Below, one piece after another: positions 611-36,760 of a DNA stretch of 36,760 nt (its first letter is position 1; each line of letters starts with the position of its first letter). Location: the IMG/VR virus record IMGVR_UViG_3300022200_000153, positions 1 to 36,760 of that record. One strand, 5' to 3'. This DNA comes from a virus. The notes under the pieces were generated by a model. That model did no database searches. It saw only the letters and a program-made list of their open reading frames with translations, and was not told where the DNA came from. The position numbers and the translations under genes were made by a program.

Positions 611-615
611 TCATC

Positions 616-1156: not shown

Positions 1157-1162
1157 GCCCCT

Positions 1163-1234: not shown

Positions 1235-1247
1235 AGGAGCACACACC

Positions 1248-1493
1248 ATGGAACTATTCAAAATATCCAAGCTGACGGGTATGCCACACGTCATGACCAT
1301 ACCACTGACTGAGCAGGCCTACGGCTACCTGTACAACCAGTGGAAGAACGAAAACCGCCTGATACAGGATGTGTTCTGTATGCTGAACGAGGACGAACGC
1401 GAGTTCATCATGAACGGCATCACGCCTGAGGAGTGGAAGTCAACATGGTTGGCATACGATGATTATCAACAAGAGGAGAAGGACAATGCATAG
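1248..1493 (+). CDS. Early protein of unknown function (81 aa)
   Basis: I chose the internal ATG because AAGGAG lies 9 nt before it; the longer in-frame version would begin inside the preceding mini-gene. The 81-residue product is acidic and helical (TEQAYGYLYNQWKNENRLIQDVF). The motif NEDEREFIMNGITPEEW is typical of small phage proteins that fold as a compact helical domain. Function is unknown. The leader AAGGAGCACACACCATG is identical to that before the gene at 36425. The end overlaps the next gene by 8 nt. Confidence 0.65.
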   Translation: MELFKISKLTGMPHVMTIPLTEQAYGYLYNQWKNENRLIQDVFCMLNEDEREFIMNGITPEEWKSTWLAYDDYQQEEKDNA

Positions 1494-1683
1494 CGACAAA
1501 CTACTGGGGGTCGTATTGGACCAGATACAGCAGGACATAAAGGACGGTGATGTAACGTCACTGTTCGATATGTTAGAGAACATAGACCACGACACACTGG
1601 TGGGCTTTCTGTCCTACAGCCGCCTTGACAGTGCCTTGGAGCAGGGGTTAATAACGGAGGAAGAACATGAACAAGTTGTATGA
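1486..1683 (+). CDS. Small acidic early protein (65 aa)
   Basis: The ATG follows AGGAGAAGGACA, a good ribosome site, so I prefer it to an upstream in-frame start. The 65-residue product is acidic and predicted helical, ending in a Glu-rich tail. It is not recognised. It overlaps both neighbours, as is usual in this operon. Confidence 0.6.
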   Translation: MHSDKLLGVVLDQIQQDIKDGDVTSLFDMLENIDHDTLVGFLSYSRLDSALEQGLITEEEHEQVV

Positions 1684-1954
1684 TCAAGTTGAGGAACTGT
1701 TAGACGAACACCATGAGAATGAGATAGGCCGTTTGTTGGGCGTCCCTGACAAAGACGTCAAGCTGACAGCTAGGGAAATTCGTAGCCACATAAAAGACTG
1801 GTGTCCAGAGCAGGTGTGCGAGGATGTATGGGCTATTTTTAGCCTGTGTCACAGCGCAGAGTACATCGACGCTGATGGTGAAAACCAAGGCTTTGACACC
1901 AAGGAAGAGGCAGTAGAGTACATAAAACAGGAGAAGATCAATGAGCACAGCTAG
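1667..1954 (+). CDS. Acidic early protein of unknown function (95 aa)
   Basis: A 95-residue acidic protein with GGAGG before the start. The middle reads as helix-turn elements (LTAREIRSHIKDWCPEQV). The C-terminal half (GFDTKEEAVEYIKQEK) resembles a short two-strand plus helix module seen in small phage proteins. Its function is unknown. It precedes thyX and overlaps its start by 14 nt. Confidence 0.6.
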   Translation: MNKLYDQVEELLDEHHENEIGRLLGVPDKDVKLTAREIRSHIKDWCPEQVCEDVWAIFSLCHSAEYIDADGENQGFDTKEEAVEYIKQEKINEHS

Positions 1955-2570
1955 TCTAGTCTGGGCCACACCAGATGCAGAGGACGTAATTGCCTACTGT
2001 GCCCGTGTGTCAAACCCTGACAACCAGAACAACGTTAAGACGGCCTTACGGCTTCTTAAGTACCTGAGAGACCATAAGCACTGGTCGCCCTTCGAGATGG
2101 CCTCTGTGTGCATGGAGATCAACACAACGAGGGACATTGCACGTCAGGTGCTCAGGCACAGGTCCTTCAGTTTCCAAGAGTTTAGCCAACGGTACGCTGA
2201 GAACCTAGGGTTCGAGGAACCTACAGCACCACGGCTACAGGACTACAAGAATCGACAGGCCAGTATTGAGGTTGATGATGAGTACTTGGACCAGTGGTGG
2301 AAGAGCGTACAGCTACGGATGGCAGGGGAATCAGAGTTTCTGTACAAGCAGGCACTGGACCGAGGGATAGCCAAGGAGGTTGCACGTAAGCTACTGCCTG
2401 AAGGTCTCACACAGTCTCGGCTGTACATGGCGGGCACTGTGCGCTCATGGTTACACTTCATTGAGGTACGTACAGGCCCTGAGACTCAGAAGGAGCACAG
2501 GGACCTTGCAAACCAGTGTCTGACCGTGTTACAATCAGTCTCACCCGCAATCTTTGGAGAAACCTCATGA
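1941..2570 (+). CDS. thyX: Flavin-dependent thymidylate synthase ThyX
   Basis: ThyX makes dTMP from dUMP with methylene-tetrahydrofolate as carbon donor and FAD/NADPH as reductant. The signature RHRxxSxxExSxR is complete: Arg72-His73-Arg74, Ser77, Glu80, Ser82, Arg84. The upstream HWSPFEM segment (His47) is also typical. At 209 residues the length is normal for a phage ThyX. Together with the class II ribonucleotide reductase further along the strand it lets the phage make thymidine nucleotides during replication. It sits among small early genes, with short overlaps on both sides. Confidence 0.97.
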   Translation: MSTASLVWATPDAEDVIAYCARVSNPDNQNNVKTALRLLKYLRDHKHWSPFEMASVCMEINTTRDIARQVLRHRSFSFQEFSQRYAENLGFEEPTAPRLQDYKNRQASIEVDDEYLDQWWKSVQLRMAGESEFLYKQALDRGIAKEVARKLLPEGLTQSRLYMAGTVRSWLHFIEVRTGPETQKEHRDLANQCLTVLQSVSPAIFGETS

Positions 2571-2701
2571 CAGTAATAGAATGGGCCGCAGTCACCATGA
2601 TCACTTTGTTCGGTGCCTTTGTAGGTGCCGCTTTTGGAGCGTGGTACATCATTGGCTTTTCGTTACTCCATTGTCCTAAAAACATCCCATCACTACTATG
2701 A
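2567..2701 (+). CDS. Small membrane protein (44 aa)
   Basis: The start is the ATG that overlaps the thyX stop, with GGAG 8 nt upstream; a longer GTG-started frame would run inside thyX. Residues about 5-32 are hydrophobic with small residues (WAAVTMITLFGAFVGAAFGAWYIIGF), consistent with one transmembrane helix containing GxxxG-like packing motifs. The stop overlaps the next start (ATGA). Function unknown; it is one of three membrane mini-genes in this early block. Confidence 0.55.
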   Translation: MTVIEWAAVTMITLFGAFVGAAFGAWYIIGFSLLHCPKNIPSLL

Positions 2702-2907
2702 ACGATTACAAATTTGTTGAGATGGTGTACGAAGACGGCGGTCCTTGCATGGACTGTATGCACAAGTACATCGAAGAAGAGACCTACCCCTACGGAGAAG
2801 GCACAGTAACCCAGAACTTCAGGGGTTGCCTAGTGCTAGACACAGGGTTTGGAGTGTGCGAAACTGCACAGAAATGGAAGGAGAGTGAGAATGGAGAAGA
2901 TCTTTGA
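2698..2907 (+). CDS. Small cysteine-containing protein (69 aa)
   Basis: A 69-residue acidic protein with four cysteines, Cys17-x2-Cys20 and later Cys44 and Cys54, which could bind one zinc ion. Not recognised. It overlaps the previous gene by ATGA and the next by 17 nt. The next gene's ribosome site lies within its last codons. Confidence 0.55.
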   Translation: MNDYKFVEMVYEDGGPCMDCMHKYIEEETYPYGEGTVTQNFRGCLVLDTGFGVCETAQKWKESENGEDL

Positions 2908-3343
2908 GCCGTTTATTGGACCCAACGGTTGGTACTGCCACTTTGAGGGCCACGTAGGTGTGGGTCTCACTAAGCAGGAAGCAGAACGTGAAGCAGTAAA
3001 CAAATACGACATAGCAATGGAGAAACACTATATGGGCACGATGAAAAACCAAGTGACAGCAGAGATGGAGATTACAGGCAACGACATTCATGAGGTCCTT
3101 GAGGCCCGTGGGAGACGCTACGGTGAGTACCATATGGTCGCTCAGTTATCACAGGCACTTAAGGAGGCACTACAGGTGTCGCCAAGCTGGGTGCACATGG
3201 AGCCTCATCAGCAGGAGTCTCTGGAGATGATCTGCAATAAAGTGTCTCGTATTTGCAACGGTGATCCGTTCTACGTAGACTCATGGCGTGACATAGCAGG
3301 CTATGCACAACTGGTGGTAAACGAACTGGAGAAGAGCCAATGA
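2891..3343 (+). CDS. DUF6378-like, possibly MazG-related phage protein
   Basis: A 150-residue protein. I chose the ATG preceded 7 nt earlier by AAGGAGA; the longer in-frame start lies inside the upstream gene. The C-terminal 80 residues (EVLEARGRRYGEY, then ESLEMICNKVSRICNGDP, then DSWRDIAGYAQL) match what I recall of DUF6378, a domain frequent in phage genomes. The spaced Glu/Lys/Asp residues over two helices resemble all-alpha NTP pyrophosphatases of the MazG class. A role in nucleotide-pool or ppGpp hydrolysis is therefore possible but not shown. It sits two genes downstream of thyX. Confidence 0.65.
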   Translation: MEKIFEPFIGPNGWYCHFEGHVGVGLTKQEAEREAVNKYDIAMEKHYMGTMKNQVTAEMEITGNDIHEVLEARGRRYGEYHMVAQLSQALKEALQVSPSWVHMEPHQQESLEMICNKVSRICNGDPFYVDSWRDIAGYAQLVVNELEKSQ

Positions 3344-3516
3344 CTAGAGAAGAATTACGTCAGGAACTAATGAAGGACACCACGGAGTACTGCTGTTACT
3401 GTGGTGGTGAAAAAACAACATTTATGTGCTGTCATGAAACCCACTTCGAGACCTTTTCTGACATGGCGGCATTCGCACAGGAGGACTTTCTAGACTACGA
3501 AATGGATAACCAATGA
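3340..3516 (+). CDS. Mini zinc-binding-like protein (58 aa)
   Basis: A 58-codon frame coupled to both neighbours by ATGA overlaps. It has a dense Cys/His cluster: Cys18, Cys19, Cys21, Cys30, Cys31, His32 and His35, spaced like a small zinc knuckle. The C-terminal half is acidic. Function is unknown; it could be a small regulator or inhibitor of a host protein. The call rests on overlap spacing and the Cys/His pattern. Confidence 0.5.
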   Translation: MTREELRQELMKDTTEYCCYCGGEKTTFMCCHETHFETFSDMAAFAQEDFLDYEMDNQ

Positions 3517-3656
3517 ACCTAGAGAAGTACGGCTATAGTAGTATAACTGGCGTCTGCTTTAATCCTTTTGGTGTAAAACCCAGAGAGATTCAAGAGGCGG
3601 CGGCTAAACTAAGGCATTATATTCTTGTTGACGATACAGAGGAGGCATTATTTTGA
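3513..3656 (+). CDS. Small hypothetical protein (47 aa)
   Basis: A 47-codon frame whose ATG overlaps the preceding stop. The product has a helical C-terminal half (REIQEAAAKLRHYILVDDTEEALF). Its last codons contain GGAGG, the ribosome site of the next gene, whose TTG start overlaps this stop. Not recognised. Confidence 0.4.
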   Translation: MNLEKYGYSSITGVCFNPFGVKPREIQEAAAKLRHYILVDDTEEALF

Positions 3657-3814
3657 AAGAACACATGAAGAAGATGTCACTGACACAGGCCTATCACCTG
3701 ATTGCCATGTACAAGATATGGCCTGCCGCACAACTGACAACCGATCAACTGACTGAATTAGTGGAGGCATACAAGACGATAAAACAAGACAGAGAATCAA
3801 AACAGACCACTTAG
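3653..3814 (+). CDS. Small hypothetical protein, probable TTG start (53 aa)
   Basis: GGAGG lies 7 nt before a TTG that overlaps the upstream stop. The nearest in-frame ATG (3665) is 19 nt from that site, so the TTG is the better start. The product is basic and helical (SLTQAYHLIAMYKIWPAAQL). Its TAG stop is part of a 12-bp palindrome (3812-3823). Unrecognised; an early-operon member by position. Confidence 0.45.
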   Translation: MKEHMKKMSLTQAYHLIAMYKIWPAAQLTTDQLTELVEAYKTIKQDRESKQTT

Positions 3815-3823
3815 GTATACCTA
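3812..3823. promoter_or_regulatory. Perfect 12-bp palindrome TAGGTATACCTA, operator-like
   Basis: TAGGTATACCTA is a perfect inverted repeat, and it is followed at once by a partial copy, GGTATAGG. It lies in the short gap between two early genes. Short palindromes with a flanking half-site can be repressor or nuclease sites, but no binding protein is known here. Confidence 0.3.
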
Positions 3824-3851
3824 GGTATAGGTAGACGCCTAAAAACGCAAC

Positions 3852-3873
3852 AGAGGCCGTTCTGAGGCCTTTT
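3852..3873 (+). terminator. Weak terminator-like hairpin
   Basis: AGGCC and GGCCT pair around a 7-nt loop, extendable by one wobble and one A-T pair, and four T residues follow. The stem is short and the T run is interrupted by the next ribosome site (AGGAGG). It would at most attenuate transcription from the early operon. Confidence 0.3.
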
Positions 3874-3884
3874 AGGAGGACTTT

Positions 3885-4046
3885 ATGAGATGTGTGGCTT
3901 GCAACAAAGCACTGAGTGACAAAGAATCGACGTTCAAGAACCTGCAAGGCGACTACATGGATATGTGTTTCGACTGCCTACCTTATGTTTTCGACTCTTT
4001 TGAAGGTGATAACGAAGAAGATGTTGACAAGGAGGAAAAACCATGA
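3885..4046 (+). CDS. Mini zinc-ribbon protein (53 aa)
   Basis: A 53-codon frame preceded by TAGGAGG. It has Cys3-x2-Cys6 and Cys28-x2-Cys31, the spacing of a minimal zinc ribbon, followed by a strongly acidic tail (EGDNEEDVDKEE). Zinc ribbon plus acidic tail suits a small protein that binds nucleic acid or a host polymerase subunit, but that is speculation. The last 23 nt of the gene contain the -35 box and spacer of a strong rightward promoter, so its end is constrained twice. Confidence 0.55.
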   Translation: MRCVACNKALSDKESTFKNLQGDYMDMCFDCLPYVFDSFEGDNEEDVDKEEKP

Positions 4047-4052
4047 TACAAT
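4024..4052 (+). promoter_or_regulatory. Strong sigma70 promoter for SSB/replication operon
   Basis: TTGACA (4024-4029), a 17-nt spacer ending in TGA (extended -10 motif), then TACAAT (4047-4052). Only one base of the two hexamers departs from consensus. Transcription would begin near 4059 and lead into the small basic gene at 4085, ssb and primase-helicase. It belongs to a set of five look-alike sites in this genome. Confidence 0.85.
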
Positions 4053-4084
4053 AAATACATAAGGTAGCTAAAGGGATAATCATT

Positions 4085-4264
4085 ATGAATAATAAACCTA
4101 AGGAAAGAAACTACATAAAGAAATACATGGATCTACTCCATAGGAGTAAACCCTATGTTTCCCCTAAGAAAGAGTACAAAAGGAGTAAACTTAAGAGTTC
4201 CCTTAAGGTGGAGGTCTATCAAGAACTTGACGATGATGTCTCTTCAAAGACCCCCAAATCCTAA
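4085..4264 (+). CDS. Small very basic protein (59 aa)
   Basis: A 59-codon frame with about one third Lys/Arg in its first 42 residues (KKYMDLLHRSKPY, PKKEYKRSKLK), ending in an acidic, Ser-rich tail. It is the first gene after a strong promoter, with an initiation region resembling those at 616 and 35717. A nucleic-acid-binding role is possible. It is not recognised by family. Confidence 0.5.
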   Translation: MNNKPKERNYIKKYMDLLHRSKPYVSPKKEYKRSKLKSSLKVEVYQELDDDVSSKTPKS

Positions 4265-4311
4265 GTACTGTTTCTTTTTCAACCAAGTCCACGATCTTAC
4301 AGGAGGTAATC

Positions 4312-4692
4312 ATGGCAAATTCTAACTACACTAACGGCACAGCCGCTTTCGTCAACTTATTAGAGACCGACAAGTACAACGGTCAGGACACAGGCAAGTA
4401 CTCCATCACCCTAACCATGGATGAGGACGAAGCCACAGCGCTAGAGAACATGGGCATCAAGCTCAAGGAGTACCAAGGCAAGGCCCAACGCAAGTTCTCC
4501 ACCAAGTACCAAGTACCTGTGTATGACCCTGAGGGCAACGAGATCGACACAGCAGACCTGCGCTACGGTTCCAAGGTACGACTGAAGTGGGCAGAAGGTC
4601 GCCCTCACCCTGTACATGGTGTGTCCACATACCTGTCAGCAGTCAAGGTCATTGAGTTTGCTGAGAAAGCGGAGACTTCTGAGGAATTTTAA
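4312..4692 (+). CDS. Single-stranded DNA-binding protein, gp2.5-like
   Basis: A 126-residue protein placed directly before primase-helicase. It has alternating strands and basic/aromatic stretches consistent with an OB fold (residues about 8-115), and an acidic C-terminal tail ending in Phe (EKAETSEEF). An acidic tail with a terminal aromatic residue is the hallmark of T7 gp2.5-type proteins, where it contacts polymerase and helicase. It is shorter than T7 gp2.5 (232 aa). AGGAGG precedes the start. Its role is to coat ssDNA at the fork and in recombination. Assignment rests on tail, size and position. Confidence 0.75.
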   Translation: MANSNYTNGTAAFVNLLETDKYNGQDTGKYSITLTMDEDEATALENMGIKLKEYQGKAQRKFSTKYQVPVYDPEGNEIDTADLRYGSKVRLKWAEGRPHPVHGVSTYLSAVKVIEFAEKAETSEEF

Positions 4693-4698
4693 GACAAC

Positions 4699-4712
4699 GG
4701 GGCTTCGGCCCC
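4699..4712 (+). other. GGGGC-TTCG-GCCCC hairpin after ssb
   Basis: A 5-bp all-GC stem closed by a C(UUCG)G tetraloop, among the most stable RNA hairpins known. It sits between ssb and primase-helicase. No T run follows, so it is not a standard terminator. It more likely protects the 3' end of ssb mRNA or separates translation of the two genes. Confidence 0.6.
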
Positions 4713-4728
4713 AACTTAAGGTAAAAGA

Positions 4729-6351
4729 ATGCAAAAGCATAAAACTGAAGCTAATTTTGTAAAACATGAGCCATGTCCTAAGTGTGACTCAAAAGATAAT
4801 CTCGCGAGGTATGATGATGGGCACGGCTATTGTTTTGGGTGTAATAGTTATTTTCCTTCAGGGGAAGAAGCACAAGTAATGGATTTTCCTACGTCTCGAA
4901 CCTTCGAGCAGTTAGGAGTAGTAGCGGCTATCACAGACCGCAAGATCTCTCTGGAGACCGCCAAGAAGTACGGCGTCACCACTGAGTTCAAGGTCGGTAG
5001 CGCAGACGCTATGAAGCAGTACTACCCGTACTACGACAACAAGGGTACACAGTGTGGTCAAAAGGTCCGTGTGGTTCGTGACAAACGGTTCACAACCAGT
5101 GGCGACATGAAGGCTAACACTTTATTTGGTCAACAACTTTTTAATAATGAGGGTAAATATGTCACAGTGGTTGAAGGTGAGCTTGACGCGCTTGCGGGGT
5201 ATGAGCTACTCGGTTCGCGCTGGCCTGTGGTTAGCGTCTCTAAGGGTGCGGCTGGCGCTAAAAAGGATTTCCAACGCAATCTGGAATGGCTGGAAGGCTT
5301 TGAGAACGTAATCATTGCATTTGATGCGGATGAAGCTGGAAGAATCGCCGCAGAGGAGTGCGCCCAGATCCTGTCGCCCAACAAGGCCAAGATCGTCAAC
5401 TTTGAAGAGTTCAAGGATGCCAGTGACTACCTGAAGCATGGTAAGGCCAAGGCATTCATGCAGGAGTGGTGGAACGCCAAGTCTTACATCATCACTGGTG
5501 TTATCACACTGGCTGACGCATGGGAAGACTTCCTGCGCCGAGGCAAAGAGAAGATCATTCCGTTCCCTGAGTCCTTTGGGCAGCTGAACCAGATGATGAA
5601 TGGCGGTATTGTAGCTGGTGAGATCACTGTGCTCGGTGCGTTGACAAGTGTTGGTAAGACCACCATGGTTAACGAGATTGTCTACCATCTTTGGAAGAAC
5701 ACAGACCTAAATATTGGCTGTGCATTCCTAGAGGCTGACCCCGGCGAAGCAGTTCAGAACCTGTTGACAATACACAACAACATGAACTTCTCTCTCGAAA
5801 ACATGGAGGACCATGATCTTGAGAAGTACAAGTCCGACATCATCACAGACGGTCGCATCTTCCTGTATGATCACTTCGGTGCCGGAGACCCAGATGAGAT
5901 TTTCTTGAAGTTGCGGAGCATGGTCAAAGGTAACGGTTGTCGTATCTTGATTATCGACCCGTTACAGGCAGGTGTCTCCAACAACGGCAACGATGTGATT
6001 GATGACTTCATGGATCGACTGCTGAAGCTGGCTAAAGAGACCAATGTGGCTATCCTTGTGGTGTCTCATATGCGTAAGCCTAGCGCTACACAGCCCCACA
6101 ACGTGTCTGAGTATGACCTAAAGGGGTCAGGTAGTATCAACCAGATCGCCTTCAACACGATTCTCTTGAGCCGTGATAAGATGGCAGAGGGAGATTACGC
6201 AAAGAACAGTACCTTCGTGCAGCTTGTGAAGTGCCGTAGGACTGGACAGACAGGGCCAGCAGGTTGGTTATACTATAATCAGGTAACAGGACGGTTAGAG
6301 GCTGGAGTATCACCAGAGCTGAAAGCGGCTTCAGGAGAAGATGAGTTCTGA
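4729..6351 (+). CDS. DNA primase-helicase, T7 gp4-like
   Basis: A bifunctional 540-residue replication protein. An N-terminal zinc-binding domain has Cys16-x2-Cys19 and Cys35-x2-Cys38. A TOPRIM primase domain follows, with VVEGELDALAG (Glu149, Asp153) and FDADEAG (Asp199, Asp201). The C-terminal hexameric helicase domain has Walker A GALTSVGKTT (Lys310), Walker B ILIIDP, and a VVSHMRKP segment like motif H3. The length is close to T7 gp4A (566 aa). The acidic tail ending in Phe (GEDEF) parallels the polymerase-binding tail of T7 gp4. It would unwind DNA 5'-3' and lay primers for the family A polymerase encoded two genes downstream. Confidence 0.95.
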   Translation: MQKHKTEANFVKHEPCPKCDSKDNLARYDDGHGYCFGCNSYFPSGEEAQVMDFPTSRTFEQLGVVAAITDRKISLETAKKYGVTTEFKVGSADAMKQYYPYYDNKGTQCGQKVRVVRDKRFTTSGDMKANTLFGQQLFNNEGKYVTVVEGELDALAGYELLGSRWPVVSVSKGAAGAKKDFQRNLEWLEGFENVIIAFDADEAGRIAAEECAQILSPNKAKIVNFEEFKDASDYLKHGKAKAFMQEWWNAKSYIITGVITLADAWEDFLRRGKEKIIPFPESFGQLNQMMNGGIVAGEITVLGALTSVGKTTMVNEIVYHLWKNTDLNIGCAFLEADPGEAVQNLLTIHNNMNFSLENMEDHDLEKYKSDIITDGRIFLYDHFGAGDPDEIFLKLRSMVKGNGCRILIIDPLQAGVSNNGNDVIDDFMDRLLKLAKETNVAILVVSHMRKPSATQPHNVSEYDLKGSGSINQIAFNTILLSRDKMAEGDYAKNSTFVQLVKCRRTGQTGPAGWLYYNQVTGRLEAGVSPELKAASGEDEF

Positions 6352-6736
6352 GACTAGGGCTTGGGATAAGACTGGTAATCGAAACAGGGGTGCATACCTT
6401 TGGGGCAAAGTGAAGCTCAAATGCACGGACTGTAATAGAAAATACCCGCAGGCAGTGCTAGACTTCCATCACCCGATAGGGATTATAAAGACGATGGCGT
6501 TAGAGTACAAAGCTTGGAGAGGTAACGCAGGACCTAAGCCCGAAGTAGTCGCAGAAGCCGAGCAGTGCATGGTCCTTTGCGCTAACTGTCATAGATTGGA
6601 GCATATTAGGATGAAGAATGAGAAAAGTGATATTGGACATCGAGACGAACGGTCTGAAACCGAGCAAGGTTTGGGTAGTGGTGACCAAGGATCTGGATAC
6701 CAAAGAAGTTTTGACTTTGAGGAACCCGACACATGA
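6341..6736 (+). CDS. HNH endonuclease
   Basis: A 131-residue nuclease with a clear HNH/zinc arrangement: Cys28-x2-Cys31, a DFHH segment (Asp41, His43, His44) and VLCANCHRLEH (Cys80, Cys83, His84, His88). It lies between primase-helicase and polymerase. It may be a resolvase-like nuclease doing the job of T7 gp3, or a free-standing homing-type HNH gene; position alone cannot decide. The first 91 residues hold the whole domain. The last 40 codons overlap the start of the DNA polymerase gene in another frame, an overlap of 119 nt. Confidence 0.88.
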   Translation: MSSETRAWDKTGNRNRGAYLWGKVKLKCTDCNRKYPQAVLDFHHPIGIIKTMALEYKAWRGNAGPKPEVVAEAEQCMVLCANCHRLEHIRMKNEKSDIGHRDERSETEQGLGSGDQGSGYQRSFDFEEPDT

Positions 6737-8342
6737 AACCCTCAAAGAGTTCTTGGGCGGTGTTACACACATTATCGGGCACAACATTATTGCCTTCGAT
6801 GTACCTGTACTCGACAGACTCTTGGGATTTGATAGTGCCTCTGTACGACTTACAGACACTCTGGTTCTCTCGCGACTATGCAACCCTTCTTTGGAAGGTG
6901 GACACAGCCTCAGAGAGTGGGGAATACGACTGAATCTCCACAAAGGGGACTACGATGACTGGAGCAAGCTGACGGACGAGATGGTTGACTATTGTGTGCA
7001 GGACGTAGAAGTTACGTATGCGGTCTACAACAGGCTGACGGCAAAGCTGGCACCCTTTGGGAACGAGAGCATTGACCTTGAGCACGATGTGCAGAAGGTG
7101 ATCGCACAACAGATCAACAATGGTTGGTTATTAGATCAGAAGCAAGCTATAGATTTATTGGGAACACTGTATGACAAAAAACTTGAACTTGAAAATAGAG
7201 TCAGGGATACCTTCAAACCGTTACCTGTTTTTATCAAAGAAATCGTACCCAAATACAAGAAAGATGGTAGCCTGTCTAACGTGGGTCTTAAGTTTCTTGG
7301 GGATAGTTGTAATCTCGTGGGCGGGTCTTTTAGCCGTCTTGATTACCCTGACTTCAATCTAGGGTCTAGGCAGCAGATCGGTAAGTATCTCCAATGGTTC
7401 GGATGGAAACCTAAGGACTTTACTGAGCACGGTCAGCCGATTGTGGATGAGAAGGTACTGAGCAACGTGAAGGACATACCAGAGGCCCAGCTGATTGGCG
7501 AGTACCTCTTGGTCCAGAAGCGTATTGCACAGGTGGAATCATGGGTAGATGCTGTAGAGGACGATGGGCGTGTACACGGTTATGTTAATGCTATCGGTGC
7601 AGTCACAGGACGTATGACGCACAGTAGCCCTAATATGGCTCAGGTGCCTGCTGGTTATAGTCCTTATGGCAAAGAGTGTCGTGCTTGTTGGATTGTGCCT
7701 AAAGGTTACAAGCTTGTTGGCTGTGATGCCTCAGGTCTTGAGTTACGTATGTTGGCCCACTACATGGACGATGTTGGATACACAAAGGAAATATTACATG
7801 GTGACATTCACACAGCGAACCAAACAGCTGCGGGACTTGCAACAAGAGATCAAGCTAAGACTTTCATATACGCATTTCTTTATGGCGCCGGAGACGCAAA
7901 AATTGGTACTATCACCGGAGGATCAGCAAGAGATGGTAGAAGACTTAAGGAGAAATTTCTTACAAACACACCAGCTCTTGCAAACCTACGAGACAGAGTT
8001 GGAACAGCTGCTAACCGAGGTTATCTCACAGGGCTGGACGGAAGAAAACTCTGGATCAGATCGCCCCACGCGGCCTTAAACACTTTGTTGCAGTCTGCTG
8101 GTGCGATTGTAATGAAAAAGGCATTGACAATCCTAGCAGAGTATGCTAAAATATATAATATACAGTATAAATTCGTTGGCAACATCCACGATGAGATACA
8201 AGCAGAAGTCCGAGAAGATCAAGCACAGACGTTCGGGTGGTTAGCTGTAGAGTGTATAAAAGCGGCAGGCGTAAAGCTTAACTTAAGATGTCCTCTGGAC
8301 GGTGACTTTAAAATTGGAGAATCATGGGAACAGACACACTAA
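6618..8342 (+). CDS. Family A DNA polymerase with 3'-5' exonuclease
   Basis: A 574-residue replicative polymerase (T7 gp5 has 704). The exonuclease domain has DIETNGL (Asp7, Glu9), GHNIIAFD (Asp61) and YCVQD (Tyr125, Asp129). The polymerase domain has motif A CDASGLELR (Asp370, Glu375), motif B RDQAKTFIYAFLYGAG (Arg410, Lys414, Tyr418) and motif C HDE (524-526). Tyr418 aligns with E. coli Pol I Phe762. Tyrosine at this site is known for T7 polymerase and is associated with virulent phages. The shorter length suggests that the T7 thioredoxin-binding insertion is reduced or absent. The start lies inside the HNH gene, and a promoter lies near the 3' end. Confidence 0.96.
   Translation: MRKVILDIETNGLKPSKVWVVVTKDLDTKEVLTLRNPTHETLKEFLGGVTHIIGHNIIAFDVPVLDRLLGFDSASVRLTDTLVLSRLCNPSLEGGHSLREWGIRLNLHKGDYDDWSKLTDEMVDYCVQDVEVTYAVYNRLTAKLAPFGNESIDLEHDVQKVIAQQINNGWLLDQKQAIDLLGTLYDKKLELENRVRDTFKPLPVFIKEIVPKYKKDGSLSNVGLKFLGDSCNLVGGSFSRLDYPDFNLGSRQQIGKYLQWFGWKPKDFTEHGQPIVDEKVLSNVKDIPEAQLIGEYLLVQKRIAQVESWVDAVEDDGRVHGYVNAIGAVTGRMTHSSPNMAQVPAGYSPYGKECRACWIVPKGYKLVGCDASGLELRMLAHYMDDVGYTKEILHGDIHTANQTAAGLATRDQAKTFIYAFLYGAGDAKIGTITGGSARDGRRLKEKFLTNTPALANLRDRVGTAANRGYLTGLDGRKLWIRSPHAALNTLLQSAGAIVMKKALTILAEYAKIYNIQYKFVGNIHDEIQAEVREDQAQTFGWLAVECIKAAGVKLNLRCPLDGDFKIGESWEQTH
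8124..8152 (+). promoter_or_regulatory. Intragenic sigma70 promoter near 3' end of polymerase gene
   Basis: TTGACA (8124-8129), a 17-nt spacer ending TGC (extended -10), and TAAAAT (8147-8152). A further TATAAT follows at 8154-8159 but at poor spacing. It would drive the exonuclease, GIY-YIG-like and ribonucleotide reductase genes. The polymerase codons here are unusually AT-rich, as expected if a promoter is embedded in the coding sequence. Confidence 0.7.
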
Positions 8343-9172
8343 TCAAAGATATTTATGACTTACTAGAGAACAAGAAGGTCTCTAAGGATGTCAACATAGA
8401 CTTCTTAATCCACGAGTTCGGGGAGTCTATGAAGAAGATCATGAAGCGTCAACTAAGTGACTGGAAACCAGACCGTAGGACCATTAGACTCTCTAATGTG
8501 GGCAAGACGCCTCTGTACCTTTGGAACCTCATGAGGGGGACAGAATCAGAGAAGATGACGCCCAACACGCTACTGAAGTTCATGTATGGACACATCATTG
8601 AAGAGATGCTGTTGTTCCTTGTGAAGGCTTCAGGGCACAAGGTGACCGATGAGCAGAAACGCTGTGAGGTCGCTGGTGTCATTGGACACATGGATGGACG
8701 TATTGATGGTACTTTGATGGACGTTAAGAGTACAAGCTCTTATAGCTTTAAGAAGTTCAAAGATGGTTCACTGGTGGACAACGATGCCTTTGGATACATA
8801 GACCAGCTCAAGGCCTATGCAAAGTCCGAAGGGGACACAAAGATTGCTTGGCTTGCCATGGACAAGCAGAATGGACACCTAACTTGGCTAGAGTATGACC
8901 TCGAAACAACTGATCATCCTAAACTGAAGGAAGACATTGAAGAGAAAATCATAAATCTAAAAAAGGCGGTGGAATCGGATACTGCACCAGACTTGTGTTA
9001 CGATTCTGTAGAGGACGGGAAGTCTGGGAACGAAAAGCTTTCTATGGAATGCTCTTACTGTCAATACAAAAAGTCTTGCTGGCCCGGGTTAAGAACTTTC
9101 TTGTATTACAATGGACCAAAGCATTTGGTAAAGGTAGCTAACGAACCCAAAGTACAGGAGATCACACGATGA
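8324..9172 (+). CDS. PD-(D/E)XK exonuclease with Cas4/AddB-like cysteine cluster
   Basis: A 282-residue nuclease. Residues 89-135 carry the PD-(D/E)XK core: GHIIEEM (Glu93), GHMDGRIDG (Asp124) and DVKS (Asp133, Lys135). Near the C-terminus Cys243-x2-Cys246-x5-Cys252 matches the 4Fe-4S cysteine spacing of AddB and Cas4 nucleases; Cys225 or Cys114 could be the fourth ligand. It probably replaces T7 gp6 exonuclease, degrading host DNA and removing primers or processing ends for recombination. It overlaps the polymerase end by 19 nt and the next gene by ATGA. Confidence 0.85.
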   Translation: MGTDTLIKDIYDLLENKKVSKDVNIDFLIHEFGESMKKIMKRQLSDWKPDRRTIRLSNVGKTPLYLWNLMRGTESEKMTPNTLLKFMYGHIIEEMLLFLVKASGHKVTDEQKRCEVAGVIGHMDGRIDGTLMDVKSTSSYSFKKFKDGSLVDNDAFGYIDQLKAYAKSEGDTKIAWLAMDKQNGHLTWLEYDLETTDHPKLKEDIEEKIINLKKAVESDTAPDLCYDSVEDGKSGNEKLSMECSYCQYKKSCWPGLRTFLYYNGPKHLVKVANEPKVQEITR

Positions 9173-9441
9173 CTAGAGCGATTTTAAACAAACTGGTTGT
9201 CTACAAGCAAAGCAACGGTCACATGACCTTTAGGGAAGCAGTCTACGATGAGGAAGGTGACTTAGCACTCATGGGGGCAACCCCTGCCTTCCCAAGGGCA
9301 CTCAGTCTTGATGACCTAGAGGCTGACCTAGAGGAGTTCATGGCAGCTCTTGATAGGACTGTGGTCAATGAGGATGATCTTGATGTAGATGACGATGTTG
9401 ATCTGGAGGACTTTGAGGTAGGCGGGGAGTTACCAAACTGA
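9169..9441 (+). CDS. Small acidic protein (90 aa)
   Basis: A 90-residue protein with a mixed N-terminal half and an extremely acidic C-terminal third (VNEDDLDVDDDVDLEDFE). Such acidic tails can mimic DNA or contact basic partners. Not recognised. It is coupled to the exonuclease (ATGA) and to the next gene (TGATG). Confidence 0.6.
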   Translation: MTRAILNKLVVYKQSNGHMTFREAVYDEEGDLALMGATPAFPRALSLDDLEADLEEFMAALDRTVVNEDDLDVDDDVDLEDFEVGGELPN

Positions 9442-9611
9442 TGTTTACCATAGAAGAACTAAAAGAAAAGATCGTAGAGACTTATGACCCTGACCTTCTG
9501 GTTGATGTTCTTAAGGTGACTACAGAAGAACTGGTCGAGGCTTTAACGGACCAGATTCAAGAGATGGCAGACTTCTTTGAGGAGGAGTTTAAGCAAGATG
9601 AAGAAGATTAA
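9441..9611 (+). CDS. Small acidic helical protein (56 aa)
   Basis: A 56-codon frame starting on the last base of the previous stop (TGATG). The product is acidic and strongly helical (IEELKEKIVETYDPDLLVDVLKVTTEELVEALTD in part), ending in a Glu/Asp-rich tail. In T7-like genomes a small acidic gene often follows the exonuclease; no function is assigned. Its last codons carry the GGAGGAG ribosome site of the next gene. Confidence 0.6.
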   Translation: MFTIEELKEKIVETYDPDLLVDVLKVTTEELVEALTDQIQEMADFFEEEFKQDEED

Positions 9612-10059
9612 CCTACGGTGGAAAAATGGTACAGGGATAACGAACTACGTTTCACGTGTTGAAGACTTCCTAGGTTTTATTTATTTAATTGAATTAGAAA
9701 ATGGAGAATACTATGTCGGTAGAAAACAATTTTGGGCTAAAAGAGGCAATGGATGGATTGAAAACGATTGGAGAGAGTACTGTAGCAGCAGTAAAACAAT
9801 ACAGCGATCTCCAGACCAAATCGTTAGAAAAACTATACTCGCTATCTTCAAGTCAAAGTCAGCCATTAGATTTGCAGAAGCGTATGGAATCATCAATTCA
9901 GGAGCTTATCTCGACTCAGACAAAGGTCTTAACTGGAGCTTTGAAGGGTCTAGAGGAACAATCAAAATGGATGAAGAAGACACTGAACAGCTCCGACGCT
10001 TAATGAGCTGGTGCTTACGTTGGAAAAAGAAACAAGATAAGGAAAAGACAGAAGAATGA
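9598..10059 (+). CDS. GIY-YIG-like nuclease family protein
   Basis: A 153-residue protein. I take the ATG 10 nt after GGAGGAG; an upstream in-frame TTG would overlap that ribosome site. The segment GFIYLIELENGEYYVGRKQ (residues 26-44) matches the GIY...YIG core (FIY, YYVG, Arg42). DWREYCSSSK (58-66) and KSKSAIRFAEAYGI (86-99, candidate catalytic Glu94) match the pattern of phage GIY-YIG proteins that have a DW.Y.SSS motif. It may be a homing-type or recombination nuclease. A second 96-codon frame is nested in it (9713-10003). The end overlaps the reductase start (ATGA). Confidence 0.7.
   Translation: MKKINLRWKNGTGITNYVSRVEDFLGFIYLIELENGEYYVGRKQFWAKRGNGWIENDWREYCSSSKTIQRSPDQIVRKTILAIFKSKSAIRFAEAYGIINSGAYLDSDKGLNWSFEGSRGTIKMDEEDTEQLRRLMSWCLRWKKKQDKEKTEE
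9713..10003 (+). CDS. Nested (overprinted) helical, phasin-like ORF
   Basis: A 96-codon frame wholly inside the GIY-YIG-like gene, same strand, shifted frame. The ATG has GGAG 6 nt upstream. The product reads like a real protein: one long amphipathic helix rich in Gln, Ser, Lys and Leu (GLKEAMDGLKTIGESTVAAV, then LQTKSLEKLY, then LQKRMESSIQEL, then WMKKTL). This resembles phasins or other coiled-coil surfactant proteins. An in-frame ATG one turn earlier (9701) is less well placed. Codon choice is like its neighbours. It may be a genuine overprinted gene or a fortunate frame; family likeness is only by composition. Confidence 0.4.
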   Translation: MSVENNFGLKEAMDGLKTIGESTVAAVKQYSDLQTKSLEKLYSLSSSQSQPLDLQKRMESSIQELISTQTKVLTGALKGLEEQSKWMKKTLNSSDA

Positions 10060-11948
10060 ATACATACGAAACATTTATTGCCAAGAGCCGATACAGCCGC
10101 TTTCTGGATGACAAGCAGCGTCGTGAGCACTGGCCTGAGACCGTAGACCGCTACATGGAGTTCATCGACAAGCAGCTGTCCTCCAAGCAGAACTACATCA
10201 TGCCTGAGGACCTGTATGACGAACTACACACTGCCATCCTGAACCGTGAAGTTATGCCTTCTATGAGGGCTGTAATGACCGCTGGTGAGGCTCTAGACCG
10301 AGACAACACAGCAGGCTACAACTGTAGCTACCTGCCCGTGGATGACGTTAAGTCCTTCGACGAGGCCATGTACATCCTCCTGTGTGGTACTGGTGTAGGC
10401 TTTAGTGTCGAAAGCAAGTACATAAACAAACTGCCTGAGGTACCAGCACTGTTGTTTAATAGCCACACTAACATCGTGGTACGCGACAGTAAAGCTGGTT
10501 GGGCCAAGAGCCTGCGTCAGCTGATTGCCCTGCTGTACTCTGGTGAGATTGCCACATGGGATGTGTCCAAGGTACGTCCAGCAGGTGCTCGGCTGAAGAC
10601 CTTTGGTGGTCGTGCGTCAGGCCCACAGCCCTTGGTTGATCTGTTTAACTTTGTCGTTGGTAAGTTCAAAGGTGCCGCAGGCCGTAAGCTGACCAGCCTT
10701 GAGTGCCATGACATCATGTGTAAGGTCGGTGAGGTAGTTGTCGTGGGTGGTGTACGCCGTTCTGCCATGATCAGCCTGTCTGACCTGACCGATGACCGTA
10801 TGCGTCATGCTAAAGCAGGTAGCTGGTGGGAACGTGATGGTCAACGTGCTCTGGCAAACAATAGTGCAAGCTACAACGAGAAGCCTACTGTGGGCGAGTT
10901 CATGACCGAGTGGTTGTCTTTGTACCAGTCACACAGTGGTGAGCGTGGTATCTTCTCTAGAGCTGCCGCTAAGTACACTGTGGAGAAGTTGGGCCGTAGA
11001 GACTCTAGCTACGAGTTTGGTACTAACCCTTGCTCTGAGATCATCCTGCGTCCATATCAGTTCTGTAACCTGACAGAGGTTGTGGCACGAGATACAGATA
11101 CAGAGGCTACCCTGTCACGTAAGGTGGAACTAGCGACAATCCTAGGGACATTCCAGTCTACTATGACCGACTTCCCATACCTGCGTAGCATCTGGAAGAA
11201 GAACACCGAAGAAGAGCGCCTGTTGGGTGTGTCTATTACTGGTATCTTGGACTGTCCTCTGCTGAACAATGTCGATGACGAAGGCCTAGAGGAGCGCCTA
11301 GGGGCCATGCGTATGTTAGCCGTTACCACCAATAAGGAGTTTGCTAGTGCTTTATCTATCCCTGCGTCTGCTTCTATCACATGCGTTAAGCCTAGTGGTA
11401 CTGTTAGTCAGCTGGTCGATAGTGCCAGTGGTATTCATGCTCGCCATAGTCAATATTATATTCGACGAGTTCGTAATGATAATAAAGACCCCATTACAAC
11501 GTTTCTTCAAGAAAAAGGAATCCCCAACGAAGCGGATGTAATGAAGCCCAACGACACAACGATCTTTAGCTTTCCTATGAAGGCACCAGAGGGTTGTGTG
11601 CTACGTGACGATCTAGACAGCTTTACGCACCTGCGCTTGTGGTTGGCCTATCAGCGTCACTGGTGTGAGCATAAGCCCTCTGTGACGGTCTACGTTAAGG
11701 AAGAGGACTGGCCTGCTGTTGGTGCTTGGGTGTGGAAACACTTTGATGAGATCAGTGGCATTAGCTTCTTGCCATGGGACGGTGGTAGTTACCGTCAGGC
11801 TCCCTACGAGGAGATCAATGAAGAGACCTACAACCAATTGCTGGCTGGTATGCCTCCTGAGGTCAACTGGAATGACTTCATTGAGATGGATGACAATGTA
11901 GAGGGAGCACAGACCCTAGCGTGTACCGCAGGAGCCTGTGAGATCTAA
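10056..11948 (+). CDS. nrdJ: Class II (adenosylcobalamin-dependent) ribonucleotide reductase
   Basis: A 630-residue monomeric ribonucleoside-triphosphate reductase of the Lactobacillus type. It makes deoxynucleotides with a B12-generated thiyl radical and needs no oxygen or second subunit. Cys90 (YNCSYLP) and Cys337 (FCNLTEV) are the active-site disulfide pair. NPCSEI gives the thiyl Cys326 and Glu328. The C-terminal redox pair is Cys623-x4-Cys628 (CTAGAC). Phage B12-dependent reductases are common in marine podoviruses and imply a host that makes or imports cobalamin. It is the last gene of the rightward arm and ends just before a strong terminator. Confidence 0.95.
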   Translation: MNTYETFIAKSRYSRFLDDKQRREHWPETVDRYMEFIDKQLSSKQNYIMPEDLYDELHTAILNREVMPSMRAVMTAGEALDRDNTAGYNCSYLPVDDVKSFDEAMYILLCGTGVGFSVESKYINKLPEVPALLFNSHTNIVVRDSKAGWAKSLRQLIALLYSGEIATWDVSKVRPAGARLKTFGGRASGPQPLVDLFNFVVGKFKGAAGRKLTSLECHDIMCKVGEVVVVGGVRRSAMISLSDLTDDRMRHAKAGSWWERDGQRALANNSASYNEKPTVGEFMTEWLSLYQSHSGERGIFSRAAAKYTVEKLGRRDSSYEFGTNPCSEIILRPYQFCNLTEVVARDTDTEATLSRKVELATILGTFQSTMTDFPYLRSIWKKNTEEERLLGVSITGILDCPLLNNVDDEGLEERLGAMRMLAVTTNKEFASALSIPASASITCVKPSGTVSQLVDSASGIHARHSQYYIRRVRNDNKDPITTFLQEKGIPNEADVMKPNDTTIFSFPMKAPEGCVLRDDLDSFTHLRLWLAYQRHWCEHKPSVTVYVKEEDWPAVGAWVWKHFDEISGISFLPWDGGSYRQAPYEEINEETYNQLLAGMPPEVNWNDFIEMDDNVEGAQTLACTAGACEI

Positions 11949-32819: not shown

Positions 32820-34073
32820 TTACCACCCCGCTACTGCGTCCATAGGTTCCCAATCGTCTTCCTCAAAGTCAGACACATAAGATACCTTTGCCAATTGTTC
32901 GATATACGATAACGAGTCTACCAAGTCATCATGTACCAGCTTATTTGGGAATTGAAACAACTGGTCCAAGAACTCGCTATTCCAATCACCTTTGTTTAGT
33001 GTTACGTAGCCGTTCTCAAAACGACCTTGTAGAGACCAAACAACCCTGTCTGTCTTTTTCTTGTTACCATGGGTCAGCTCCTCAACCCTAAAGAATGTCT
33101 GGGTTCTCTTCATTATATCGGTCATGTAGGGCATAACTGCCTGTTTAGCGATACCCTTCTCAATCCCTACGGCATTTGGTTCATACTTCTTGACAGCATC
33201 AAAGATCTTCTTGGCTGTTTTCTTTACGTCCCAACGACCATAGATAATCTCTGCAACCCACCAACCCTTCTCGTTTGCTTTTACAACAGCAATAGAGGTG
33301 TTGTCTAGACGCTTGTTCTTAACTCCTGTAGAACCTTCTTCTTCAAAGCCTGCCAAGTCAATTGCAATGTAGTAGTCGCCAGACTCAGGTTCATCTTCAT
33401 CGAACTTAATCCACTTCTCTTTGAATAGTTCGCCTCCAGCAGCCTCGAAGGATGCCATAAATTCCTGCCGGAACGAGAATGAGGACATACTCTTTTTTGC
33501 TGCTTCAATTTCATTAGGGTCTAGTAAGGGGTTATCAAAAGAAGTAAAGTGGAAAGACTTAAAGGTGTCATCTTCGCCTTTTAAGCCGTATTGGTATAAA
33601 TCATAGAAGTGGTTACGACCCATTGGCGTACCAATGAACATCGCTCTACCCTTCAAGTCAGCCAGAGCAGGCCTAAGGATCTGTTCCCAGACCTCTGGCT
33701 TCATGTCAGCATACTCATCAAGTACCAGAAACTTTAGCGAGACACCTCGCATTGTTTCAGGACGATCAGCCCCTTTGAGGCTAATGGTTGCTCCATTGAC
33801 AAGCTTAAGCTGCAAGTTGTTAATATGACTATTGGTAATAACCGAATGACCAATCTCAAGCAGGACTTGCCACATGATGTCACGGGCCTGTCCTTGGGTG
33901 GGAGCAACGTAGAAGACATGACCTTTGTCACTTTGTAGTGCTTCGACTATTAGACGATCAGCAGCTAAGTGACTCTTGCCTGTACGCCGACCAGCGGCTA
34001 CTACGTGGAACCGAGTATCATCATTCCAGACCTCCTGTTGCCAAGGAAGTAGTTTAATTTGTAGATCAGACAT
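32820..34073 (-). CDS. terL: Terminase large subunit
   Basis: The 417-residue DNA-packaging motor and nuclease. Walker A is GRRTGKS (Lys33), Walker B is LKFLVLDE (Asp119, Glu120), and the C-terminal RNase H-like nuclease starts at YIAIDLAG with the later acidic DDLVDSLSY site. It is shorter than T7 gp19 (586 aa) and closer to compact terminases. It acts with the small subunit and portal to cut concatemers and fill capsids. It overlaps the small-subunit gene by 8 nt. Confidence 0.94.
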   Translation of the reverse strand: MSDLQIKLLPWQQEVWNDDTRFHVVAAGRRTGKSHLAADRLIVEALQSDKGHVFYVAPTQGQARDIMWQVLLEIGHSVITNSHINNLQLKLVNGATISLKGADRPETMRGVSLKFLVLDEYADMKPEVWEQILRPALADLKGRAMFIGTPMGRNHFYDLYQYGLKGEDDTFKSFHFTSFDNPLLDPNEIEAAKKSMSSFSFRQEFMASFEAAGGELFKEKWIKFDEDEPESGDYYIAIDLAGFEEEGSTGVKNKRLDNTSIAVVKANEKGWWVAEIIYGRWDVKKTAKKIFDAVKKYEPNAVGIEKGIAKQAVMPYMTDIMKRTQTFFRVEELTHGNKKKTDRVVWSLQGRFENGYVTLNKGDWNSEFLDQLFQFPNKLVHDDLVDSLSYIEQLAKVSYVSDFEEDDWEPMDAVAGW

Positions 34074-34443
34074 CTTTGATCTCCACGTCAGTTACTTCAT
34101 CGACAACCTCAGGCTCGCTTACGCTAGTCCCTAGGCCAGTAATATTGATCTGTATAGCAGACCTACCACCTTGTTTAACAACTTCTTGCTCAAAGGCCGA
34201 CACAGGGATAATTCTATCTACGACCAACTTCCATGCAGCTGCTTGGTTCTTATGTTCGTTATCTAGAGCAGCATCAAAGATGGCATCTAAGACCTTCCTT
34301 GACTTTGGGCTAGACAACATCCTAGCTTTATATTCGTTAATGATTGCAGCATCACCTTTAGGGCGACCTACAGCATTACGTTTAGTATTGGCAGACAACT
34401 CATTCTTTGGTGGTCTTCCAATTTTTCTTTTTATTTCTGACAT
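34066..34443 (-). CDS. terS: Terminase small subunit (probable)
   Basis: A 125-residue protein immediately before the large subunit. I prefer the second ATG (34443), which has GGAG 6 nt upstream; the first ATG (34455) would add four residues but lies 14 nt from the nearest AGGAG. The N-terminal part has two AT-hook-like GRP cores (residues 9-11 and 26-28, IGRPPK and VGRPKG). A helical middle (NEHKNQAAAWKLVVDRIIP) and an acidic tail follow. The layout and position fit a packaging-site recognition subunit. It is the first gene of the late operon. Confidence 0.75.
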   Translation of the reverse strand: MSEIKRKIGRPPKNELSANTKRNAVGRPKGDAAIINEYKARMLSSPKSRKVLDAIFDAALDNEHKNQAAAWKLVVDRIIPVSAFEQEVVKQGGRSAIQINITGLGTSVSEPEVVDEVTDVEIKDV

Positions 34444-34461
34444 TAAAGTCTCCATAGTTAT

Positions 34462-34586: not shown

Positions 34587-34615
34587 ATTATAGCACAAAA
34601 ATCCCTATTTGTCAA
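34587..34615 (-). promoter_or_regulatory. Consensus sigma70 promoter for the late (leftward) arm
   Basis: On the minus strand: TTGACA (34615-34610), a 17-nt spacer ending TGC (extended -10), and TATAAT (34592-34587). Both boxes are perfect. The RNA would start near 34580, leaving a leader of about 135 nt before the small terminase gene. It sits at the left edge of the gene-free region. Confidence 0.93.
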
Positions 34616-34770: not shown

Positions 34771-34940
34771 CAATGTAGTTCCAAATTACCCTTATTTTGT
34801 ATCTGGGCGGGTACAGCTAAAATACAACACAGGCTGTCCCCTCCCCCGGGGGTCCTAAAGACCCTATAGAATACTCAGGAACCCAATGCATTGGTACTAC
34901 ATAAGGGTTCATGAGTACTACTAATGATCCAATGGACACA

Positions 34941-34980: not shown

Positions 34981-35030
34981 GGGCTAGGGGTAGGCCTAGG
35001 TAACAAGTGTGTGTGTCAACGTGGGACCCC

Positions 35031-35070
35031 ATTGGCCACCATTGGCCACCATTGGCCACCATTGGCCACC
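35031..35070. repeat. Four perfect tandem ATTGGCCACC units
   Basis: Four exact head-to-tail copies of a 10-mer. The core TTGGCCA is a partial palindrome. The repeats lie 50 bp after the CAGGAGGCCA array, with which they share GGCCA. Exact copy suggests recent or maintained repetition. Confidence 0.9.
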
Positions 35071-35118
35071 ATCAGTTAGCAGGACCTAGGCAGCACTTAA
35101 TAACCCCACTGCCACCAG

Positions 35119-35206
35119 TGTCAATAAACCGACAGTAGGTGTCAATAAACCGTCAATAAGTGTCAAAATATTGACAGTTTAGGGGTCTAGTGTCAAAATA
35201 TTGACA
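35119..35206. repeat. Cluster of TGTCAA boxes including two TGTCAAAATATTGACA inverted repeats
   Basis: TGTCAA-type hexamers begin at 35119, 35140, 35151 (CGTCAA), 35161 and 35191, with inverted TTGACA at 35171 and 35201. Spacings are 21, 11, 10, 10, 20 and 10, so nearly all face one side of the helix. The first two lie in repeats TGTCAATAAACCG. The last four form two copies of the 16-bp imperfect palindrome TGTCAAAATATTGACA set 30 bp apart. It looks like a binding array for an initiator or repressor. Confidence 0.8.
35171..35199 (+). promoter_or_regulatory. Possible early rightward promoter inside the TGTCAA array
   Basis: TTGACA (35171-35176), 14 nt, TGT, then CAAAAT (35194-35199). This has the same frame as the five strong promoters but only 4 of 6 matches in the -10 box. 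On the other strand the same pair of palindromes gives TTGACA, 14 nt, TGT, CAATAT, so the element is promoter-like in both directions. It would feed the early genes from 35316. Confidence 0.45.
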
Positions 35207-35315
35207 GGGTCCAAGGGTCTAAAGTAATACTCAAGTATACAAAAAGACTATCTTTAGGGGTTGGCACAGGGTTTGCTTAGGTGTTGTCAGTTAAACCACC
35301 AAGGAGACCACCACC

Positions 35316-35520: not shown

Positions 35521-35703
35521 ATGGAAATCATTGTAACCATAAAGAACAATTATGGCACCGACACAATCTACCCATCATGCCCCAAGGGTCAGGCCTTCGC
35601 CAAGATAGCAGGCACCAAGACCCTGACCCTAGACACCATTAAGTTAATCAAGGCCTTGGGTTATACTGTATCGGTCGCAGGCCCTGCCATCAAATCACTG
35701 TAA
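35521..35703 (+). CDS. Small early protein (60 aa)
   Basis: A 60-residue protein starting after AAAGGAGACACC. It alternates strands and a helix (EIIVTIKNNYGTDTIYPSC, then LDTIKLIKALGYTVSVAG), suggesting a compact alpha/beta fold. Not recognised. It stands 13 nt from both neighbours. Confidence 0.6.
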   Translation: MEIIVTIKNNYGTDTIYPSCPKGQAFAKIAGTKTLTLDTIKLIKALGYTVSVAGPAIKSL

Positions 35704-36424: not shown

Positions 36425-36658
36425 ATGAAGTACACCAAGCCGATAAATATTCAAGGCCTAGGGTCCCGTGCCCTTCGAAGGGTCCAAGTGGGCCAGTGGG
36501 TCACAGCAGGCGAAGGCGGCCCCCTTGGGCGCTACCTAGGCTGTAAAAAGTCTAGGACCCTCATTGTCGTTGTAGGCTGGCATGAGAACGCCAAGCGATA
36601 CCCTGAAGGTCCTACGGCCTACTGGCAAACCCTGCGTGACTACGCACTAGGAGAATGA
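36425..36658 (+). CDS. Early protein of unknown function (77 aa)
   Basis: A 77-residue basic, beta-rich protein (VQVGQWVTAGEGGPLGRYLGCKKSRTLIVVVGW) with some likeness to small SH3-like folds, but no family recognised. AAGGAGCACACACC before the ATG is identical to the leader at 1233-1250. Its last 9 codons also occur at the left end of the window, which is the basis for closing the genome here. Confidence 0.6.
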   Translation: MKYTKPINIQGLGSRALRRVQVGQWVTAGEGGPLGRYLGCKKSRTLIVVVGWHENAKRYPEGPTAYWQTLRDYALGE

Positions 36659-36760
36659 ACCATGACCAAAAATGAAACCAGAGCACTGATTGAGATGTGC
36701 ATGACTGCACTCGAGAATGTGGCCTCCGAGGCCGTGATTAAGCATGAGCGAGGCCTGACC
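36634..36760. repeat. Right copy of imperfect terminal direct repeat
   Basis: The partner of bases 1-128, at roughly 92% identity, with identical first 27 nt. Nine substitutions fall after position 27; seven are silent in the shared reading frame. One A is missing just before the ATG. Confidence 0.85.
36662..36760 (+). CDS. Partial variant copy of the gene at 30-221
   Basis: The first 33 codons of the same small early protein, cut by the window end. It differs from the left-end version at residues 11 (Val to Glu) and 30 (Leu to Arg). It is either the same locus from another strain, if the contig is circular, or a tandem paralog. Confidence 0.7.
   Translation, partial: MTKNETRALIEMCMTALENVASEAVIKHERGLT

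Follow-up and report, generated by a model that had tools for sequence, protein, structure and literature searches.

The TGTCAA-type array in the sole divergent intergenic region of this phage (34456-35315) is non-random and real, and likely acts as a sigma-54 enhancer of some kind. Its unit is best read as a 16-bp dyad, TGTC-N8-GACA, present in four copies (O1-O4, Table 1), and on the interpretation that the sequences make probable the array would serve as the upstream activating sequence of a predicted sigma-54 (-24/-12) promoter, capturing a host flagellar regulator for the early operon. Dimers of a host enhancer-binding protein of the FleQ/FlrA type, i.e. the flagellar master regulator, would bind the phased dyads, loop across about 54 bp and remodel the closed complex of sigma-54 RNA polymerase, so driving the rightward early/replication gene block. 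The evidence is computational, comprising the dyads and the sigma-54 site, their conservation and geometry, an exchange of enhancer cassettes among related phages and the occurrence of this arrangement beside host motility genes. Early promoters of phages are, in the usual view, served by the housekeeping sigma factor or by a phage polymerase. A sigma-54 promoter fires only with an ATP-driven activator, so that a phage with such an early promoter would start only where the regulator is active; given a FleQ-type enhancer, the early block is predicted to depend on the flagellar or c-di-GMP state of the host, and the host state that is read before infection starts may differ between related viruses. 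A literature search of incomplete coverage turned up no phage promoter reported to be driven by FleQ or NtrC.

The window, i.e. the whole stretch of DNA analysed here, spans the virus record whole (36,760 bp) and appears to come from a marine phage encoding a T7-like primase-helicase and DNA polymerase, ribonucleotide reductase, ThyX, a Cas4-type exonuclease, a portal protein and the large terminase (terL). A gene for a GIY-YIG SegE-like homing endonuclease (9577-10059) directly precedes the ribonucleotide reductase gene. Two gene arms diverge from the intergenic region that holds the array: structural genes run leftward from 34455 to 11998, and early/replication genes run rightward from 35316 to the record end, resuming from position 30 to 11948. 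Because its two ends are near-duplicate, though non-identical (1-127 and 36630-36760), the record comes close to being a complete circle, which suggests a complete genome, circular or terminally redundant, put together from a mixture of strains. No RNA polymerase, transcription regulator, enhancer-binding protein, repressor or Rep initiator was found among the phage ORFs scanned; small phage ORFs could encode a dyad-binding protein. Relatives of the window were located via the small-terminase-like gene, which has no family match and no match among isolated phages. Also in the intergenic region are a 10-bp repeat, CCATTGGCCA, in four tandem copies (35027-35072) whose number differs among relatives, and, at 34790-34850, an element TTTTGTATCTGGGCGGGTAC followed by a C-run, which is conserved family-wide, resembles TTTTGTGCCTGAGTGGCTAC and is possibly a genome end or origin core.

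Table 1. Features of the divergent intergenic region and its flanks (window coordinates).
Feature	Position	Strand	Remarks
Small-terminase-like gene	34066..34455	-	first leftward gene; adjoins terL, upstream of terL
Sigma-70 promoter, perfect TTGACA-17-TATAAT	34587..34615	-	for leftward terminase/structural arm; conserved in L003-L013 and L158
Dyad O1, TGTCAATAAACCGACA	35119..35134		FleQ-type half-sites; conserved in L003, L004, L006; TGTCAAAAAACCGACA in L158
Dyad O2, TGTCAATAAACCGTCA	35140..35155		degenerate right half; missing in L158 (sequence, alignment)
Dyad O3, perfect TGTCAAAATATTGACA	35161..35176		L004 version TGTCAAAAAATTGACA
Sigma-70-like TTGACA-17-CAAAAT	35171..35199	+	10/12; arms of O3 and O4; spacer 18 in L158
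Dyad O4, perfect TGTCAAAATATTGACA	35191..35206		identical across five aligned phages
Spacer, last dyad to sigma-54 site, 54 bp	35207..35260	+	includes conserved block CTAAAGTAATACYCAAGTATACAWAAAG
Predicted sigma-54 (-24/-12) promoter, TTGGCACAGGGTTTGCT	35261..35277	+	top match of the 36.8-kb window
Shine-Dalgarno-like AAGGAG of first rightward ORF	35301-35306	+
First rightward ORF, 63 aa	35316..35507	+	opens rightward early/replication gene block
60-aa ORF	35521..35703	+	shared by window and L003-L006; not in L158
DUF7227 protein gene, 231 aa	35717..36412	+	downstream gene, conserved whether relatives are array-type or NtrC-type

Six of the seven TGTCAA-type hexamers counted in the initial annotation are exact (TGTCAA/TTGACA at 35119, 35140 and 35161 (+), 35171 (-), 35191 (+) and 35201 (-)), whilst the seventh is partial (CCGTCAA, about 35151). 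Six hexamers per 88 bp were reached neither in 200 genome dinucleotide shuffles (largest count 5) nor in 1000 shuffles restricted to the intergenic region (largest count 2), and the two palindromes 30 bp apart, found as described and corresponding to O3 and O4, had no equivalent as a pair of perfect TGTCAA-N4-TTGACA sites in 200 shuffles. Grouping the hexamers into dyads gives a better reading than counting them singly, with a start-to-start pitch of 21, 21 and 30 bp from O1 to O4. An RNA hairpin was considered and rejected: the fold is strong (z -5.8), but palindromes alone produce that, and the arms are without covariation.

The sigma-54 site, overlooked in the first reading, scored 22.5 of 23 in a -24/-12 scan (next-best site in the window, 19.5), and amongst 300 whole-window shuffles two scored at least 22, one of them reaching 22.5. 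It conforms to TGGCAC-N5-TTGCW with GG and GC invariant and ten bases apart, both of which are kept in relatives, and is oriented toward the first early ORF, 38 nt from its ATG. Confirmed E. coli sigma-54 sites share this form, e.g. those of glnA (TTGGCACAGATTTCGCT) and rpoH (CTGGCACAGTTGTTGCT) (PMC4591121). The site is much stronger than the sigma-70-like element on which an earlier proposal of a two-way promoter was based. Sigma-70-like pairing is indeed present on both strands (TTGACA-18-AATATT on the minus strand also scores 10/12), and arises because the dyad sequence itself yields it; as a functional promoter the element fares less well, since a stronger sigma-54 site lies 54 bp downstream and relatives lose the minus-strand -10 (O3 becoming TGTCAAAAAATTGACA) whilst retaining the dyads, the plus-strand element being kept in close relatives. 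The hexamer is, as had been noted, the -35 box of five strong promoters (TTGACA in 4024+, 8124+, 34615-, 30308- and 21599-, scoring 11-12/12), and the promoter at 17866+ likewise scores 11/12, although the dyad arm probably shares it by coincidence.

It is quite improbable that the array is a phage or host repressor operator, or a sigma-70 promoter/operator occluding TTGACA-containing promoters. Phased palindromes are operator-like, the plus-strand pairing over O3-O4 scores well, most viral contigs with such dyads are without nearby sigma-54 sites, and FleQ also represses at some promoters (PMC6120874); against these points stand the weak -10 and its loss on the minus strand, the failure to find a repressor gene, and the presence in sister phages, at the same place, of NtrC-type dyads, a classical activator site. 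The dyads also share features with two known classes of regulatory site. They have the half-site spacing of CooA-type sites of the CRP/FNR family, which we take TGTC-N8-GACA to represent, but no such regulator gene was found and the inner AA/TT and the sigma-54 site of the window suggest an enhancer-binding protein. They resemble GlrR/QseF sites in their TGTC...GACA arms and enhancer position, the GlrR/QseF consensus being TGTC-N10-GACA upstream of sigma-54 promoters (PMC8745638), but differ in having an N8 spacer and a conserved inner AA/TT. The string TGTC-N8-GACA itself appears in a non-phage paper (PMC7306483).

The spacing of the array, which the initial annotation had proposed to check in related genomes, is conserved in close relatives. 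In L003, L004, L005 and L006, O1, O3 and O4 lie at exactly 42 and 30 bp, and L158, which is ~74% identical in this region, has three dyads at 31 and 31 bp; one interval has thus lost a turn and the other gained one base, so that the dyads still lie on the same side of the helix. The gap between the last dyad and the sigma-54 site is 54 bp in the window, L003, L004 and L006, and 53 bp in L158/L163 (the L158 sigma-54 site being weaker, GTGC), and dyads with a 53-54-bp gap are conserved across five relatives. The suggestion that one protein binds the array and acts at RNA polymerase is probable.

Relatives that keep the flanking genes and lack the hexamers, a combination that the initial annotation regarded as telling against the array, do exist (L007, L009, L012 and L013), but these carry a different phased enhancer, of the NtrC type, and such a replacement offers an explanation of the array, not a refutation. 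Over 674 bp L009 shares 93% identity with the window, the match ending at the array start (window about 35099), where L009 has two DnaA boxes and three NtrC-type dyads instead; its contig stops short of its sigma-54 site. All four phages contain three TGCACY-N5-RGTGCA-like dyads at a pitch of 20-21 bp; in L007, L012 and L013, 64 bp separate the end of the last dyad from the sigma-54 site. Shuffling each region 1000 times produced no such triplet, nor did any occur in 679 kb of other phage contigs, although the four regions are homologous and hence do not represent independent events; the window intergenic region contains no TGCACY-N5-RGTGCA dyad. In the more distant L164, NtrC-type dyads end 65 bp before the sigma-54 site, with TGTCAA dyads further upstream. 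The gaps of 64 and 54 bp differ by about one helical turn.

NtrC sites are textbook sigma-54 enhancers, and an array in the same place is thus most simply an enhancer of other specificity. The window array shares with NtrC enhancers (e.g. that of glnA), a type that occurs in L007, L012 and L013 as well as L009 and L164, an arrangement of phased 16-17-bp dyads in tandem ahead of a sigma-54 site, and differs from them in half-sites that are TGTCAA-type, not TGCAC-type. The best explanation for these observations is an enhancer that behaves as an exchangeable cassette, apparently alternating between FleQ-type and NtrC-type versions. We put at about even the chance of a wider pattern, in which related phages swap the enhancer of one sigma-54 early promoter (NtrC for nitrogen, FleQ for motility or c-di-GMP) and so gate the lytic early programme on a host signal, other lineages having reached the layout independently. 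If true, the swap between almost identical phages would make the awaited host state directly testable, and would provide a genomic handle on marine phages tied to motile or nitrogen-limited cells.

The case for FleQ in particular comes from the dyads themselves and from bacterial genomes. Consensus sequences for FleQ have been given, both with caveats, as GTCaNTAAAtTGAC in P. aeruginosa and GTCAaAAAAtTGAC in P. putida; the consensus is weak, and FleQ represses as well as activates (PMC6120874). The array contains two copies of GTCAAAATATTGAC and one of GTCAATAAACCGAC that match these consensuses; the match of O1-O2 is partial, whilst the L004 version of O3 contains the P. putida consensus at 14/14 letters. 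We searched 369 gammaproteobacterial genomes for the pattern GTCAAN4TTGAC-N38..68-TGGCAN6TTGC, which was matched in 7, compared with 0/369 for a composition-matched scrambled dyad plus sigma-54 site. All seven chromosomal matches fall at flagellar, flagellar-regulator or GGDEF loci: three precede fliL-fliM (Pfam FliL, NCBIfam FliM), two precede the same type of GGDEF diguanylate cyclase, one adjoins flagellin, and one lies between a FleQ-like gene, for which FleQ is the best match among solved structures (8p53, E 1.7e-113), and a gene for a histidine kinase at the fleS position. The seven are partly dependent, with two homologous GGDEF genes and fliL three times. Gaps between host dyad and sigma-54 site are 44-60 bp, a range that includes the 54 bp of the phage. 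The stricter TGTCAAN4TTGACA plus sigma-54 pattern gave 0/369 matches, and the outer T/A pair is thus not the host norm; the paired dyads found on 31 contigs of bacterial genomes (mostly Prevotella, Demequina and others) formed a mixed set that was not informative.

The phage element therefore resembles the FleQ-dependent sigma-54 flagellar promoters of gammaproteobacteria (fliLM, fleSR), with a GTCAAN4TTGAC-type dyad 44-60 bp upstream of the -24/-12 site, and differs in its three to four phased dyads, its extra terminal T/A pair and the early, rather than motility, genes downstream. The probable binder is FleQ/FlrA, which would activate rather than repress and would gate early transcription by motility or c-di-GMP state. 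A sigma-54 enhancer bound instead by another CAA-N4-TTG enhancer-binding protein, such as NtrX or one encoded by the phage, appears unlikely. NtrX recognises CAAN2-5TTG (PMC9223101), which sits within the dyad core, and the host might be no gammaproteobacterium, tail-protein relatives infecting alphaproteobacteria, Methylophilales and others; however, the TGTC/GACA outer arms extend past the NtrX core, the chromosomal matches of the same geometry are all at flagellar or GGDEF loci, and the phage ORFs scanned include no enhancer-binding protein.

Similar arrays are found in other viruses. Two TGTCAAN4TTGACA dyads 3-30 bp apart occur, nearly always in intergenic positions, in 86 viral stretches (25-31 groups by shared proteins), and their pitch has maxima near 21, 31 and 41 bp, plus an additional class at 16, indicating that phasing to the helix is a general feature. 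Near these arrays, sigma-54-like sites are 30-100 times as dense as elsewhere on the same contigs, this being the case in only 5-6 of 31 groups; in most array-bearing phages, which have no nearby sigma-54 site, the dyads may serve another protein or mode. Three dyads precede a sigma-54 site with a gap of 53 bp in L211, the terL of which is 27% identical, and of 66 bp in the T7-like phage L166. Scans of the whole viral collection returned 15 contigs with dyad and sigma-54 site, 4 with a scrambled dyad and 16 with reversed promoter orientation; by lineage there is no clear excess over controls, and the case is accordingly built on conservation, cassette exchange and the test in host genomes. No HTH or enhancer-binding family appeared among the Pfam matches listed (25 of 35 families) for 117 ORFs around arrays of other groups. 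HMO-2011 and CRP-1 were considered as characterised relatives and set aside, the homologous region being without dyads or sigma-54 sites. Paired TGTCAA dyads together with several sigma-54-like sites are present in L092 (which matches HMO-2011), L114, L120, L130, L134, L141, L150 and L165.

A link between the array and replication, which the initial annotation had also raised, is circumstantial, drawing on the DnaA boxes of relatives and on the cumulative GC skew minimum, which falls in the divergent intergenic region and is confounded by divergent transcription. Many terminase-region relatives have DnaA-box arrays in the homologous intergenic region, L009 has its two DnaA boxes exactly at the position of the window's array, and the array includes 21-bp repeats, so that the dyads could be conceived as origin iterons to which a replication initiator binds, in place of the DnaA boxes of relatives. 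We regard this as very improbable: no Rep initiator was detected in the phage, and an origin would not need the conserved gap between dyads and sigma-54 site. As the sole reading, simple substitution for DnaA boxes was rejected, because DnaA boxes coexist with TGTCAA dyads in L164 and L095. The relatives' arrays themselves comprise 4-8 DnaA boxes TTATCCACA (L025, L027, L034, L037, L049, L051, L055 and L060-L062), sometimes followed by one sigma-54-like site, and are probable DnaA-dependent phage origins. Upstream of the small-terminase-like gene, again in this intergenic region, L053, L035, L028, L045, L030 and L068 contain up to eight sigma-54-like elements TTGGCACGAGTCTTGCATGG, arranged in tandem and sometimes convergent, often with a pitch of 47 or 56 bp.
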